DNA of 64,000 nt from Gordonia spumicola (GTDB taxonomy: Bacteria; Actinomycetota; Actinomycetes; Mycobacteriales; Mycobacteriaceae), in assembly GCF_009932475.1 (NCBI RefSeq), contig NZ_BJOV01000002.1, forward strand, positions 186,001 to 250,000, in the 5' to 3' direction. Below, piece by piece: positions 33 to 7,510 of the stretch (positions are counted from its first letter, which is position 1; the number at the start of each line of letters is the position of its first letter). Position numbers and translations under genes: made by a program. Below the pieces are notes generated by a model. It worked only from the letters and a program-made list of their open reading frames with translations. It ran no database searches and had not been told where the DNA came from.

Positions 33-569
33 GTGAAGCCCCAAATCAAATGGGCGCTCGCAGCGGCGGCGGTTCTGCTGGTGGGATTCTTCTCCCTCCA
101 GCAGACCGGCGCCCTCTGGCGTTCGGAAGCATCCGCACCCGGCGGCACCGTCACCGCGGGAACACTCGAGATCTCGGCGGGCCAGAGCGGCGTCAAGAGC
201 TTCAATCTCGATGGATTGACCCTCACTGACGCCGACGCAGGTCAGAGCGTCCAGAAGCCGCTGCCGGTCATCAACTCGGGCAACGTCACCATGCGGTACA
301 AGCTCAACAGCGTCGCCGTGAACGGCTCCGCGCCGCTCATGCTCCGCGTTGCGAAGGTCGCCGATCAGGCAGCCTGCACGGCAACCGGGACTCCCGGCAC
401 CGAGCTCTACAACGGTGCGGCGAACACCGCGTTCACGGCACCGCAGAACGTCTCCGCTGGAACCACCGAGGTGCTGTGCCTGAAGGTGACCATCGCCGAC
501 AACGCGCAGACCGCGCAGTCGAGCAACGCCACCTTCACCTTCGGCGCTGAGTCGGTCTCGAACTCATGA
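33..569 (+). CDS. SipW-type (alternate signal) exported protein A
   Basis: A 178-aa small exported protein. The N-terminus has a hydrophobic segment (residues 8-22) followed by GALWRSEASA (26-35), which resembles the cleavage region of SipW-dependent proteins such as TasA and camelysin. The rest is a beta-rich Thr/Asn/Gly domain with one Cys pair (in QAACTA and EVLCLK) that may form a disulfide. It looks like the RER_14450 family of alternate-signal exported proteins; this is recalled, not searched. The GTG start at 33 follows GAGGAA at 24-29. The stop overlaps the start of the signal peptidase at 566 by 4 bp, so the two are translationally coupled. Likely a surface or extracellular subunit; function unknown. 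Confidence 0.75.
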   Translation: MKPQIKWALAAAAVLLVGFFSLQQTGALWRSEASAPGGTVTAGTLEISAGQSGVKSFNLDGLTLTDADAGQSVQKPLPVINSGNVTMRYKLNSVAVNGSAPLMLRVAKVADQAACTATGTPGTELYNGAANTAFTAPQNVSAGTTEVLCLKVTIADNAQTAQSSNATFTFGAESVSNS

Positions 570-1587
570 TTTCGGGTCGCGGAACACACCACGTCGACGA
601 GGCTCAGCCCTCGCCGGACACCGACGACGTCGAGCACGGTGTCGACGACGATGAGAAGACTCCACTCCTGTGGTGGGTCAAGACCATCGCCTCGTGGACC
701 CTGCTCGCCGCCGCCGTCGCGCTGCTCGCAGCACTCGTGGTGGTTCCGCGACTGACCGGCTCGACCGCGTACACCGTCCTGACCGGTTCGATGGAGCCGA
801 CGTCCCCCCGGGGACGTTGATCGTCGTCAAACCGACTCCGGGCGACCAGTTGAAGGCCGGCGACGTGATCACGTTCCAGCCGAAGTCGGGCGACCCGTCC
901 GTCACGACGCACCGCATCATCAGCATCGTGTACGACGCATCCGGCACCCGCCGGTTCATCACCAAGGGCGATGCGAACAACTCCACCGATCCGGTTCAGC
1001 TGGTCGAGGAGCAGATCCGCGGCAGGCTCATCTACTCGATACCGAAGCTCGGCTATCTGAACAACGTGATGTCCGGCAACTCGCGGAGCATCGCTGTGTT
1101 CCTCATCGCGGGAGCGCTAGGTCTCTACGCGCTCTGGATGTGGATCGGCAGCATCCGGGACCGCAAGAAGCCCAAGGACGGCGACCCCGAACCCACCGAC
1201 AAGGCCGATGCGCCACCACCGGGTCCGGAGTCCGGGGAGACCAGTTCGTCCGAGTGGCCCGCAGCCGATCCCGGCACCCTCGGTTCGCTGGTCGTCACTG
1301 CCGCACCGGCGACGGACGTCGTCGCGACACCTGCCGTCGTCGCACCCCAGCCCGATCCCTACGAATACGCCTCGGCACCGTCACCGGCTCCCACCCCGGT
1401 CCAACCGCTCGGCGGCCACGCGGGATCGCCGAGCGCAAGAATGTTCCCCGCCCAACAGATGGCCGTGCCGCATGCGTACTCGCCATCGCCATGCCACGTG
1501 TGTGGCGCGCCGGCCCCTCCCCCGGCTGAACCCCTCGCGGACGTGCCGTCGACCGCGACCACCCGACCGATCCCCATCATCAAGTGA
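566..1587 (+). CDS. SipW-type signal peptidase I, apparently frameshifted
   Basis: Membrane signal peptidase of the S26B (ER/SipW) type. Residues 1-84 in the first frame hold a transmembrane segment (about 44-62) and the catalytic-serine motif TGSMEPT (Ser75), then run into a stop at 818-820. The continuation DVPPGTLIVVKP, the catalytic-His region VTTHRII, a second transmembrane segment and a Pro-rich tail are all in the -1 frame, ending at 1587. The break falls at a run of six C (804-809); one extra C would give T-S-P-P-G-T-L in frame. It may be a sequencing error, a real mutation, or slippage on CCC/CCC. If joined the protein has about 340 residues. The natural client is the exported protein just upstream. 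Confidence 0.7.
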
Positions 1588-1600
1588 CATGAGGCAACAG

Positions 1601-2230
1601 ATGTCTACTCCCACCGAATCCCGCCTGCGCGGTCGCCTCGGCGCGACCGGCTGGACCCGCGCCCGTGCCATCGCATCCCTAGGCATGGTCTTCGGCCTCG
1701 GCGCCGTCGGCACGATGGCCGCCTGGTCCGACACCGCGACCGCCACCACCGGCATGTTCTCGACGAACGCGGTCAACATCAAGATGACCGTCAACGACAA
1801 CCGCCCGGTCTACAACTTCGTCGGCTTGAAGAAGATCAACATGGCGCGCGGCGCTACGACGGCCGGTCTGCTCACCGTCAAGAACACGGGCTCGGATGCC
1901 TTCACCTACGCCATGGGCGTCGATATCGCGAACAACGGCACCGCCACGTACGGCGGTGCCAGCGCAGCGATCTTCGCGCAGAATCTCCTGGTCACGGTCC
2001 TCAAGAACGGTACGGTGAGCGGCGCCACCTGCACCGGCGGCACCGTCGTCGGCACCGCCGACACGCCGCTCCTGATCGGGTCCAAGGCGCTCGTGCCGAC
2101 CACCGCTCCGCTGGCCGTGAACGGCACCGAGAATCTGTGCATCCAGGTGAAGGTCAACGCCAACGCGCCGAAGGAGGCCCGCATGGCCGCGGTCTCCGCC
2201 AAGTTCAAGTTCACCGCGACCAAGGCCTGA
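1601..2230 (+). CDS. SipW-type exported protein B
   Basis: A 209-aa exported protein and a second member of the alternate-signal family. A basic N-terminus precedes a hydrophobic stretch (about 24-42) and the motif MAAWSDTATATTG, matching the aromatic-Asp cleavage context seen in SipW substrates. The beta-rich body has one Cys pair (GATCTG and NLCIQV), as in protein A. The ATG at 1601 was chosen because GAGG (1591-1594) lies six bases before it; an in-frame ATG at 1589 has no Shine-Dalgarno. It lies 13 bp after the first peptidase and 6 bp before the second. Probably secreted by one of these peptidases; possible pilin- or fibre-like subunit, by analogy only. Confidence 0.72.
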   Translation: MSTPTESRLRGRLGATGWTRARAIASLGMVFGLGAVGTMAAWSDTATATTGMFSTNAVNIKMTVNDNRPVYNFVGLKKINMARGATTAGLLTVKNTGSDAFTYAMGVDIANNGTATYGGASAAIFAQNLLVTVLKNGTVSGATCTGGTVVGTADTPLLIGSKALVPTTAPLAVNGTENLCIQVKVNANAPKEARMAAVSAKFKFTATKA

Positions 2231-2236
2231 CCTCAG

Positions 2237-2815
2237 ATGAGTCGACTCACCGATACCGCCTCCGGTCATCACTCACGACGTGAGCTGCTGCTCAATGTCG
2301 GTGCGATCCTCGGTTTGGCCTGCATCGTCGTGGCGATCGGATCGATGGTGTTCGGGGTGACCCCGCTGGTGTTCCGCTCCGGTTCCATGTCCCCCGACAT
2401 CCCCACCGGTTCACTCGCCCTGGCCCGGACCGTCGATGCCGCCGACCTCCGAGTCGGCGACGTGGTGAGCGTCGACAACGAAGTCGGCACTCGGATCACT
2501 CACCGGGTGATCGGCATCGAGAACGTCGGCGACGGTTCGGTGTCGTTGACTCTGAAAGGCGACGCCAATCGCGTTCCCGACCCCTCTCCCTATGTCGTGA
2601 CACGTGCCGATCGGGTCATCACCAGTGTCCCCGTCCTCGGCTATGTCGCAGCCTGGCTCTCGAGCAAGACAGCCATCTTCATCGGCGGAATCATCGCCGG
2701 CGCCCTTTTGATGCTCGCGTTCGGCCCGATTCGCCGCCCGAGCGACCGCACCCTTTCGACCGACGAGCCCGCCGAGAGCAGCGAGCCGCAACTCCAGGAG
2801 GCAGACCATGCCTGA
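2237..2815 (+). CDS. SipW-type signal peptidase I (intact)
   Basis: A 192-aa membrane signal peptidase. A transmembrane segment (about 17-40) is followed by the nucleophile motif RSGSMSPDIPTGSL (Ser50) and the general-base region TRITHRVIGI (His89). A Ser-His arrangement without the bacterial Lys is the mark of S26B/SipW enzymes. A second transmembrane helix (about 140-163) precedes an acidic cytoplasmic tail. The KGDANRVPDP box (KGDaN) is also typical. It overlaps the next gene by 8 bp, indicating an operon. It is intact, unlike the peptidase at 566, and could serve all exported proteins of the cluster. Confidence 0.82.
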   Translation: MSRLTDTASGHHSRRELLLNVGAILGLACIVVAIGSMVFGVTPLVFRSGSMSPDIPTGSLALARTVDAADLRVGDVVSVDNEVGTRITHRVIGIENVGDGSVSLTLKGDANRVPDPSPYVVTRADRVITSVPVLGYVAAWLSSKTAIFIGGIIAGALLMLAFGPIRRPSDRTLSTDEPAESSEPQLQEADHA

Positions 2816-3785
2816 ACTCTTCCAGTCCGTCCGGGGCAAGATCCCGTCCACGCGCGCACTCCTCGCCATCGGCGGGGCCGCGGCCGTAGCCGTCGGCGCG
2901 CTGTCCACCACCGACACTCTCGCCGCGAACAACGATGCGGTCAGCGCCAACACGTCGCAGATCGCCAGCCAGAACTTCTTCCCGGTGCGAGCCCCGGTCA
3001 ATCCGAGCTACTCCACCCCAGGTACTTGTTTCGGCGGCAATGCGACCCTGAAGTGGCAGGCGGCTTCTGGAACCCCCGCCGACCAGCTGTGGCAGATCGA
3101 AGAATGGGGCAACTCAGGAACCCTGTTGATGTGGACCAGCCCAAACCTCGTGGCGTCGACCCGCGAGCGCCAAACTGGCATGGAGAACAACGGCGGCTCC
3201 ACCCATGAGTATCGAGTCTACGGCGTGAACGCCACGACAAACGAACGATCCACAGGCTACGTGTCCATCTACTTCTACCGGGATGGCGGTCGCTGCAACT
3301 ACTCGAAGGGTACGGCGACCGAAGGCCCGGTGAACATCACCACCTGGCAGGAGACGACGGACTACACCCCGTTCGACTCCGAAGAAGTGATCAACGTTCA
3401 GCGGAGCAACCGCGCGGCGTTCGAACCGCCTGCCGACGCCAGTACTTCGCCGTCGTCGACCGCTCCGACGACGTCGAGCAAGCCGTCGTCGACCGAGGCT
3501 CCGTCGTCCACCTCGTCGACGCCGTCCGCGCCGTCGAGCGAAGCACCCACGTCCACCGAGGAGTCGAAGGCACCGACGACGTCCTCCGCTGAGGCCGACA
3601 AGATCACGTACGGCGTTGGTATCGCGGGCACCACGAAGAAGCTGATCATCTACAAGAACGGCACCGAGATCTGCGACTTCGACATGGCCGAAGGCGATAC
3701 GCCGTCGAGCAACGGCAACACCGTCTCGGTGACGAACGGCAGCACGGTGAAGACGGTCAATCCCAAGACCTGCACCCTGAGTTGA
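2808..3785 (+). CDS. Secreted Ser/Thr-rich protein of the SipW cluster
   Basis: A 325-aa secreted protein. A hydrophobic signal (about 17-36, ending DTLAANN) precedes a domain of about 165 residues with aromatic residues and two Cys (TCFGG and GRCNYS). Next comes a Ser/Thr/Pro/Glu linker (about 205-265) of the kind that is often glycosylated or spans the cell wall, then a short C-terminal domain with two Cys (EICDF and KTCTLS). It is the last gene of the cluster and overlaps the peptidase by 8 bp. No sortase motif or hydrophobic tail is visible, so attachment would have to be non-covalent or indirect. I do not recognise the family; an accessory or anchor protein for the small subunits is a guess. 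Confidence 0.7.
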   Translation: MPELFQSVRGKIPSTRALLAIGGAAAVAVGALSTTDTLAANNDAVSANTSQIASQNFFPVRAPVNPSYSTPGTCFGGNATLKWQAASGTPADQLWQIEEWGNSGTLLMWTSPNLVASTRERQTGMENNGGSTHEYRVYGVNATTNERSTGYVSIYFYRDGGRCNYSKGTATEGPVNITTWQETTDYTPFDSEEVINVQRSNRAAFEPPADASTSPSSTAPTTSSKPSSTEAPSSTSSTPSAPSSEAPTSTEESKAPTTSSAEADKITYGVGIAGTTKKLIIYKNGTEICDFDMAEGDTPSSNGNTVSVTNGSTVKTVNPKTCTLS

Positions 3786-3870: not shown

Positions 3871-4026
3871 ATGTTGACCCCCGAAGAGATTCATGACGTC
3901 GCGTTCAGCAAGCCGCCGTTCGGCAAGCGTGGGTACAACGAGGACGAGGTCGACGCGTACCTCGATCTCGTGGAAGCCACGGTCTCGGAACTCCGCACTC
4001 GACTGTCGAAATACGAGAAGATCTGA
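3871..4026 (+). CDS. DivIVA-domain microprotein (51 aa)
   Basis: A 51-residue protein starting [20 protein letters not shown] and continuing [20 protein letters not shown]. This is the signature of the DivIVA/Wag31 N-terminal domain: the F-x-K-x-P-x-G-K-R-G-Y loop, then E-D-E-V-D-x-Y-L-D entering a coiled coil. It stops after about one turn of coiled coil, so only the membrane-curvature-binding head is kept. Full Wag31 proteins exceed 250 residues; short single-domain versions do occur in actinobacteria. The start is supported by the -10-like box at 3859. It could modulate polar growth by pairing with full-length DivIVA proteins (inference). Confidence 0.8.
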
Positions 4027-5566: not shown

Positions 5567-5690
5567 GCTTCCACGTCTGACCGTCACTGCTTACAGCAGG
5601 CAACCCTCCACACTCCATTGCTCCCCCGCTCCGGTGACGGTTACGCGAACACGCACCTCGACGGGCGGGTTGTATCGCTACGGTCGGTGC

Positions 5691-6872
5691 ATGGAACGCA
5701 GCGACAGGCGCACGCCGCAGATCGTGCAGAGCTGGCGCGAGATTCAGGACCGCGATCCGGTTGGGCCGTTGTGGCGGGCCGCGCAGATCTTCCGACTGCT
5801 GTCGTTCGTGTACGCGCTCGGCTTCCAGATCGCCGTCAACGGCGACCTGACAAGGCCCGGCCTCACGTGGGCCCTGTTCGGCGTCATGACCGTCGCCAAC
5901 ATCTGGTGGACCGTCGGCTACCTCGTCGGGTTCGGGCGACGCCCCTGGTTCGTCGCCGTCGAGGTCGCGGTGTCTGCCGCGATGATGATGTCCACGTCGT
6001 TCGTCGCCGACGGCTCGTGGATCTCCGCCAACCAGACTTGGCCCACCACCCTGTGGATGACGAACGCGGCGCTCTCGACGGCCGTCATCGGCGGCACCCT
6101 GTGGGGTGCCGCGGCGGCCCTCGCCATCGCGTGCGCGAACTACTACGTGAAGGGCGAGGTCTACCTCAACTTCGGCCGCAACGCGACGGCCATCCTCCTC
6201 GTCTCCGCGGCGGCAGCCGTCGGCATGGCGGCGTCGCGCGCTCGGAAAGTCCACGGCGAACTCGTCGCCGCCGTCGCTGTCGCCGCCCGATCGGCCGAAC
6301 GCGAACGACTCTCCCGCGAAGTCCACGACGGCGTCCTCCAAGTCCTCGCGCTCATGGCGAAGCGGGGACGTGAGATCGGCGGCGACGCTGCACAGCTCGC
6401 CGAACTGGCCGCTGAACAGGAACGACGCCTCCGTGCCCTCATCGCCGATACCCCCGACACCGCTCTCGAGCCCGCCGAACGCGACCTCGCCGCCGTCCTG
6501 CGAACCGTCTCCGGCCCCCGCATCCACGTCAGCGCACCCGCCGAACCGGTCACCGTCTCCGCCCTCGTCGCCGACGAACTCGTCGCCGCCGTCGACAACA
6601 TCCTCGACAACGTCACCCACCACGCCGGCCCCGGAGCCGAAGCGTTCATCCTGCTGGAAGATCTCGGCGACCAGGTGATCGTCAGCGTCCGAGACGACGG
6701 CGTCGGCATCCCCGACGGGCGCCTCGCCGCCGCCGAAGCCGAAGGCCGCCTCGGCATCTCGAGGTCGGTGATCGGCCGTGTCGAAGCGCTCGGCGGAACC
6801 GCGCGCTTGGAGTCCGGGCCCGATGCCGGGACAGAATGGGAACTGTCCGCACCGAAGGAGAGCCGCACATGA
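5691..6872 (+). CDS. Sensor histidine kinase, MacS-like
   Basis: A 393-aa membrane sensor kinase. The N-terminal half carries about five hydrophobic helices (about 30-175) with almost no extracytoplasmic domain, so it likely senses the membrane itself. The HisKA_3 dimerisation box ERERLSREVHDGVLQ has the phosphorylated His at residue 212. A HATPase_c domain follows, with N-box NILDNVTHHA and G1 box DDGVGIPDG. The layout matches MacS-family kinases of actinobacteria (recalled). The start at 5691 is supported by TACGGT six bases upstream. Its stop overlaps the response regulator start (ATGA), so kinase and regulator are co-translated. Confidence 0.88.
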   Translation: MERSDRRTPQIVQSWREIQDRDPVGPLWRAAQIFRLLSFVYALGFQIAVNGDLTRPGLTWALFGVMTVANIWWTVGYLVGFGRRPWFVAVEVAVSAAMMMSTSFVADGSWISANQTWPTTLWMTNAALSTAVIGGTLWGAAAALAIACANYYVKGEVYLNFGRNATAILLVSAAAAVGMAASRARKVHGELVAAVAVAARSAERERLSREVHDGVLQVLALMAKRGREIGGDAAQLAELAAEQERRLRALIADTPDTALEPAERDLAAVLRTVSGPRIHVSAPAEPVTVSALVADELVAAVDNILDNVTHHAGPGAEAFILLEDLGDQVIVSVRDDGVGIPDGRLAAAEAEGRLGISRSVIGRVEALGGTARLESGPDAGTEWELSAPKESRT

Positions 6873-7510
6873 CACTGCGAGTGATGGTGGTCGACGATCA
6901 CCCCATGTGGCGCGAGGGGGTGGCCCGCGACCTCACCGACAACGGGTTCGACGTCGTCGCCACCGCGGACAGCGTCGCCGCCGCAGGCACACGCGCCGCG
7001 ACGGTCCTGCCCGACGTGGTGCTCATGGACATGAATCTGCCCGACGGCACCGGCGCCCAGGCGACGGCCGCCGTGCTCGCCGTCCATCCGGGTGCTCGTG
7101 TGCTGATCCTGTCGGCGTCCGACGAACGCGATGACGTCCTCGACGCCATCAAGGCCGGCGCCACCGGGTATCTCGTGAAGAGCGCCCAACAGTCGGAGCT
7201 GATCGCCGCCGTCACCGCCACCGGCGACGGCCAGCCCGTGTTCACCCCGGGGCTCGCCGGACTCGTCCTCGGCGAGTACCGACGCATGTCGGCTTCTCCC
7301 CGGGCGGACGCCCCCGTCCTCACCTCCCGCGAGACCGAGGTCCTGCGGCATGTCGCCAAGGGGCTGTCGTCGCGCCAGATCGCGACCCGGTTGGAGATCA
7401 GCCCGAGGACCGTCGAGAACCACGTCGGCTCCGCCCTCCGAAAACTCCAACTCGGCAATCGCGTCGAACTCGCCCGCTACGCCATCGAACACGGCCTCGA
7501 CGCCGACTGA
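6869..7510 (+). CDS. NarL/FixJ-family response regulator
   Basis: A 213-aa two-component response regulator. The receiver domain (1-120) has the acidic pair Asp9-Asp10, phospho-acceptor Asp54 (VVLMDMNLPDG) and the conserved Lys in GYLVKSA. A LuxR-type helix-turn-helix follows (about 148-210, LTSRETEVLRHVAKGLSSRQ). The start is the ATG overlapping the kinase stop, preceded by AAGGAG (6855-6860). It partners the kinase encoded immediately upstream. Targets are unknown; the membrane protein downstream is a candidate by position. Confidence 0.93.
   Translation: MTLRVMVVDDHPMWREGVARDLTDNGFDVVATADSVAAAGTRAATVLPDVVLMDMNLPDGTGAQATAAVLAVHPGARVLILSASDERDDVLDAIKAGATGYLVKSAQQSELIAAVTATGDGQPVFTPGLAGLVLGEYRRMSASPRADAPVLTSRETEVLRHVAKGLSSRQIATRLEISPRTVENHVGSALRKLQLGNRVELARYAIEHGLDAD

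Follow-up and report, generated by a model that had tools for sequence, protein, structure and literature searches.

The first 3.8 kb of a 64,000-nucleotide stretch of Gordonia spumicola DNA (GCF_009932475.1, contig NZ_BJOV01000002.1, positions 186,001-250,000, forward strand), in the following called the window, hold most of a likely operon on the + strand with the order X, C, A, first S26B signal peptidase, B, second S26B peptidase and D, which probably serves a multi-subunit surface filament working like the TapA-SipW-TasA system of Bacillus. The host genome comprises 4.89 Mb in 10 contigs, and protein searches with C, A and B place the nearest relatives of the cluster proteins in Gordonia. 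An earlier note on this DNA had proposed a TasA counterpart, which is supported by the predicted fold of B with TasA as best match, by the homology of A to B, and by the signals of B and C that are recognized by a curated model. It had also correctly described A, B, the second peptidase and the secreted, Ser/Thr-rich D, which all lie on the + strand, as overlapping or nearly so, but it missed the third SipW-type substrate C and the further secreted gene X, both upstream of the window; C escaped because it lies 24 bp before A, beyond the window edge. From the features computed here, which are the signals of B and C, the S26B motifs, the predicted fold of B, the A-B homology, the gene order, the peptidase clades and the fusion of D, we infer cleavage, pairing, polymerization and the role of D as follows. 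C, A, B and D would be exported via Sec as membrane-held precursors with SipW-type signals. Cleavage before the conserved aromatic residue would be the task of the S26B peptidases, the first of which is tied to A and the second to B, as motif, clade and linkage suggest. The freed N-terminal strand, with its invariant Trp at the place of Phe29 of TasA, may then complete the beta-sandwich of the next subunit, as the predicted fold indicates, and D, whose gene abuts that of the second peptidase or is fused to it, might be a TapA-like initiator or anchor.

B is predicted to adopt the TasA beta-sandwich. Its top two fold matches, TasA and an archaeal bundling pilin, are both donor-strand filament subunits, followed by weaker matches that include type 1 and CS20 pilins; the model has low confidence at residues ~13-55. 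Folds were predicted because the profile search of solved structures was indecisive, giving TasA and the archaeal AbpX for A and B at E 0.15-0.73 amid other weak rows, and for C a glucanase alone at E 0.57. Many kinds of Ig-like fold match the model of C about equally, and therefore no conclusion is drawn for C. Homology between A and B runs along their length (99.7%, E 4e-27 in profile comparison), and the signal together with the following region is common to C and both A and B. Database searches returned 59 protein matches for C, 77 for A and 83 for B, with named relatives including Gordonia, Rhodococcus, Prescottella, Dietzia, Tomitella, Skermania and one Nocardioides. In alignments of each query with part of its relatives (A, 47 rows; B, 56; C, 39), the Trp directly after the A-x-A type motif is invariant for all three proteins, and the alignments of A and of B each contain an invariant or almost invariant Cys pair.

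The family model TIGR04088 (cut-off 19 bits) is matched by B with 29.3 and by C with 24.8 bits, both above the cut-off, and was not detected in A or D of the window at E<=1. C is moreover a full member of TIGR04089 (133.8 bits, cut-off 60), whereas A resembles this family weakly (19.1 bits) and is not a member. Of the SipW-type signals that had been read in A and B before, the one of B holds, and that of A is reduced to this weak resemblance. For A and B of the window we found no Pfam family above cut-off, no match to the camelysin family PF12389 (Peptidase_M73) at E<=1 and none to the TasA model NF046066 (cut-off 450 bits) at E<=0.01. Of the B rows, all 56 match TIGR04088, 24 match PF12389, 16 TIGR04089, nine weakly the BsaA model TIGR04090 and three weakly NF046066; of the A rows, 36 match TIGR04089, four TIGR04088 and one, weakly, the TasA model. 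Four relatives of B already bear TasA or CalY family names in databases. The 24 B rows with PF12389, which is named camelysin metallo-endopeptidase, could speak for camelysin-like metalloproteases instead of structural subunits. This is very improbable, as the best fold match, TasA, is a structural protein, and reading the sequences of C and of A and B of the window revealed no HExxH motif; camelysin protease activity as the leading function was rejected because the closest fold is that of a structural protein. The metal site of TasA is called a possible ancestral remnant of camelysins in a passage of PMC9674648.

Many of the database names of the relatives read just “ribosomally synthesized peptide with SipW-like signal peptide” or hypothetical protein. 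Together with the missing Pfam family for A and B, this would also agree with SipW-type secreted proteins that do not polymerize, such as monomeric coat, adhesin, antimicrobial or signaling surface proteins with dedicated export peptidases. We regard this as rather unlikely, since B most resembles two donor-strand filament subunits in its fold, with pilins among the weaker rows, and since the homologous A and B plus the conserved D fit a multi-subunit filament better.

The cluster was compared across 102 loci (L003, which is that of the window, L004 and L035-L134), most of which were chosen for matches to A, B or C. The contiguous, single-strand order C-A-S26B-B-S26B is present in 76 of them, from 65 genomes and 13 genera, which argues against chance. 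The earlier note had named folds unrelated to TasA and a gene order restricted to this strain as findings that would contradict its proposal; both points were tested and neither came true, as the order is kept far beyond the strain. Among the 26 loci without the contiguous order is that of the window itself, due to its split peptidase. Seven others of the 26 (L055, L066, L076-L080) have separate C-B-S26B and C-A-S26B modules, and in L060, L072, L073 and L075 the A module and the B module are on opposite strands. The order C-S26B-A-B-S26B was seen in L042, L045 and L104, with the displaced peptidase still on the A side of the peptidase tree described below. An extra C-like protein past the second peptidase or beside the cluster occurs in many loci outside Gordonia, with examples in L061 (8906-9394) and at similar places in L063, L064, L067, L071, L074, L081, L082, L083, L086, L088 and L093. 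L084 (G434:C1:2192001-2211999) contains near-identical tandem repeats ~3226 bp apart, with C, A, B and D; no S26B peptidase was detected in the repeated copies, and amplification or an assembly effect is possible.

Of 59 genomes of the genus Gordonia, 17 have C and 21 have the second peptidase. Among 251 genomes drawn from the family, 83 match A, 103 match B and 84 match C. Every A-positive genome is also in the B and C lists; 19 genomes have B without A or C. As the A and B profiles detect each other, the layout of the loci is the sounder evidence. At class level, 25 of 345 genomes match the A profile, 23 of them outside the family (best E per genome 8.8e-31 to 9.0e-13).

The second peptidase reaches 73.6 bits with TIGR02228 (cut-off 51.85) and has its Ser, His and Asp motifs in a single open frame. 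Of the S26B peptidase that had been assigned to each substrate, this one is thus confirmed, whereas the first is not one open frame as sequenced: the frame breaks at or close to a stretch of six C (804-809), and although the downstream piece gives 60 bits with TIGR02228, S26B membership fails because the Ser and the His sit in different frames. The Bacillus SipW model NF046067 (cut-off 190 bits) is reached neither by the second peptidase (64.1 bits) nor by the downstream piece of the first (54.1 bits). A sequencing error would be a simple cause of the break, and real loss is possible; programmed frameshifting is unlikely, as the gene is unbroken in each of the five further loci that share this cluster type (L004, L035, L036, L037 and L038). 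A search of the host genome with the second peptidase gave two S26B genes in total (E<=0.01). If the first is disrupted as sequenced, the second, being the sole other S26B enzyme found, would therefore have to suffice. In L049 (5511-5799) the catalytic middle of the first-peptidase gene is deleted in frame, with both membrane ends kept. Frameshift and independent deletion could point to a cluster that is decaying in this strain, with the first peptidase as a pseudogene and the other genes as remnants or partly functional. However, C, A, B, D and the second peptidase all read as open frames and each have a counterpart in related clusters, and the break at the C run may be an error of sequencing, which makes decay improbable. 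Protein searches found full-length relatives of C, A and B elsewhere, the nearest being 83-94% identical; a 138-residue piece (P0147, from a contig of 1,489 bases) is identical to part of B.

A tree of the S26B domains was built from 197 of 203 matches after six fragments had been dropped, including both halves of the first peptidase of the window. It splits in two with SH-aLRT support of 98: one side contains all 99 peptidases that lie nearest behind B, the other all 89 that lie nearest behind A, and of the nine domains labeled neither A nor B, eight fall on the A side and one on the B side. The linkage between peptidase and substrate persists in the split modules. The complete set of Ser, His and GDxN patterns was found in 93 of the 99 B-type and 79 of the 89 A-type peptidases.

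Some results weigh against a filament with matched peptidases. In a mirror-tree test of distance matrices from 73 loci, cognate pairs were not favored, with partial correlations of 0.24 for A and the first peptidase, 0.46 for A and the second, 0.11 for B and the second, and 0.23 for B and the first. Most of the linkage would also follow from a fixed ancestral order, without enzyme specificity. That the first peptidase is broken in this strain and reduced in L049 weakens the idea of matched peptidases, and similarity of fold does not by itself prove polymerization. The matched processing enzymes postulated earlier are thus retained as linkage and as two clean clades, without rate co-evolution and with one enzyme broken in this strain; a matching of the peptidases to A and B is demonstrated at the level of inheritance, but not at that of specificity.

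The D family is present in 97 of the 102 loci. In 65 of 99 B-type cases, covering 11 of 14 genera, the B-type peptidase and D form one open frame without intervening stop. D is a separate downstream gene in the other 34, with 47-201 bases between the matched peptidase and D domains in 32 of these; no such shared frame with D occurs among the 89 A-type peptidases. A hydropathy scan found at least three membrane segments in 59 of the 65 fusions, which fits a peptidase followed by a return segment and an internal signal. By pattern scan, 38 of the 65 fusions have F, L, Y or W at the aromatic place of the internal signal; of 40 separate D frames, 13 have F, W or L there. A typical fusion signal is GTSAAFTDTA, compared to GTMAAWSDTA in B, and the motif is worn in D of the window (TLAANNDAV). 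Profile comparison of D N-termini gave 96.4% against B, 95.9% against A and 93.2% against C; the ordinary secreted family X gave 36%, 47% and 93% in the same comparison, and since X reaches 93% too, these scores need care. TIGR04088 was undetected in the eight D proteins tried, so that the D signal rests on motif and profile comparison, and no relevant match of D was found in Pfam and NCBIfam. The gene for D overlaps the peptidase gene here, comparable to Bacillus subtilis, where the tapA stop codon overlaps the sipW start and the N-terminus of TapA is donated to start TasA filaments, as set out in sections of PMC10151520. By this analogy only, D is a candidate for a TapA-type initiator or anchor, which makes the former statement that no assembly factor is visible doubtful. 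Tentatively, the second peptidase might in a large part of the family be a natural polyprotein of membrane segment, S26B domain, second membrane segment, internal SipW-type signal and exported D, that matures D in cis or holds it at the membrane, the D strand starting a TasA-like filament at the very site of subunit cleavage. A single machine would in that case handle export, trimming and nucleation.

As in tapA-sipW-tasA of B. subtilis, a SipW-type peptidase adjoins exported substrates, one of which (B) has a predicted TasA fold, and by reading of the alignment the N-terminal aromatic and a PGD region stand at the places of the donor strand and the proline box of TasA. Unlike in B. subtilis, there are two S26B peptidases from two clades and four proposed SipW-type substrates, D is fused to the peptidase in many relatives, and the host genera are expected to bear a mycolic-acid outer layer in their envelope. 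The models TIGR04089 and TIGR04088 describe single proteins, and their outputs do not cover the five-gene order, the two peptidases or D. The individual proteins are already known to annotation pipelines. The sipW-tasA/capP/calY region of Bacillus cereus shares two TasA-type subunits and a third exported assembly protein, SipW-processed and sortase-independent, but the portions of PMC13082335 describing it mention one SipW and no peptidase fusion. The sipW-bsaABCRSD operon of Clostridium perfringens likewise combines SipW with several exported proteins, among them the filament-forming BsaA (PMC7395162, in part), whose model is the one weakly matched by nine B rows. It has one peptidase and the regulators BsaR and BsaS inside the operon, whereas here a putative two-component pair lies outside the cluster, 1.8 kb past D.

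TasA-like systems are described as widespread in a review, with TasA fibers mostly characterized in Bacillus and related filaments in archaea (PMC10903470, in extracts). In open-access literature, judged by title and start of abstract and with subscription papers outside the scope, no paper was found on this actinobacterial cluster or on a signal peptidase-substrate fusion, and no open-access paper on SipW and Gordonia. A conserved, separately organized version in Gordonia, Rhodococcus and their kin would extend the TasA mechanism to bacteria with a mycolic-acid envelope and would give a candidate matrix for their cell aggregates. The natural peptidase-substrate fusion would allow trimming and filament initiation to be studied in one polypeptide.

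Table 1. Genes of the cluster. Positions refer to the window unless marked L003 (L003 coordinate = window coordinate + 10000).
Feature	Position	Strand	Remarks
X	L003:8571-9294		Secreted protein with ordinary AHA-type signal; upstream of window
C	L003:9499-10008	+	SipW-type substrate; 24 bp upstream of A
A	33-569	+	Exported beta-rich protein, 178 aa; SipW-like signal ...TGALWRSEA; homolog of B; two conserved Cys
First S26B peptidase, 5' fragment	566-820	+	N-terminal membrane segment, catalytic Ser motif GSMEP, out-of-frame stop
First S26B peptidase, 3' fragment	805-1587	+	-1 frame (open frame 670-1587); His and Asp motifs, C-terminal membrane segment, Pro-rich tail
B	1589-2230 (alternative start 1604)	+	Exported; predicted TasA-like beta-sandwich; signal ...GTMAAWSDTATATTGMF
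Second S26B peptidase (SipW-type)	2237-2815	+	Ser/His/Asp motifs intact
D	2808-3785	+	Secreted, Ser/Thr-rich; worn SipW-like motif; 8-base overlap with peptidase gene

Relatives of X are found in 54 of the 102 loci, on the opposite strand in a number of these. Upstream of the operon, a putative, divergent dnaK-grpE pair was recognized by eye. Past D, an open reading frame (ORF) of 51 aa with a lone DivIVA domain follows at 3871-4026 of the window; at the equivalent place of L035 (9582-10043) is a 153-aa version with seemingly two such domains. Further downstream (5634-7510) lies the two-component pair mentioned above, by eye an apparent sensor kinase and a LuxR-type response regulator and thus a possible regulator, and a similar pair is present past the cluster in L035 (10975-12812).

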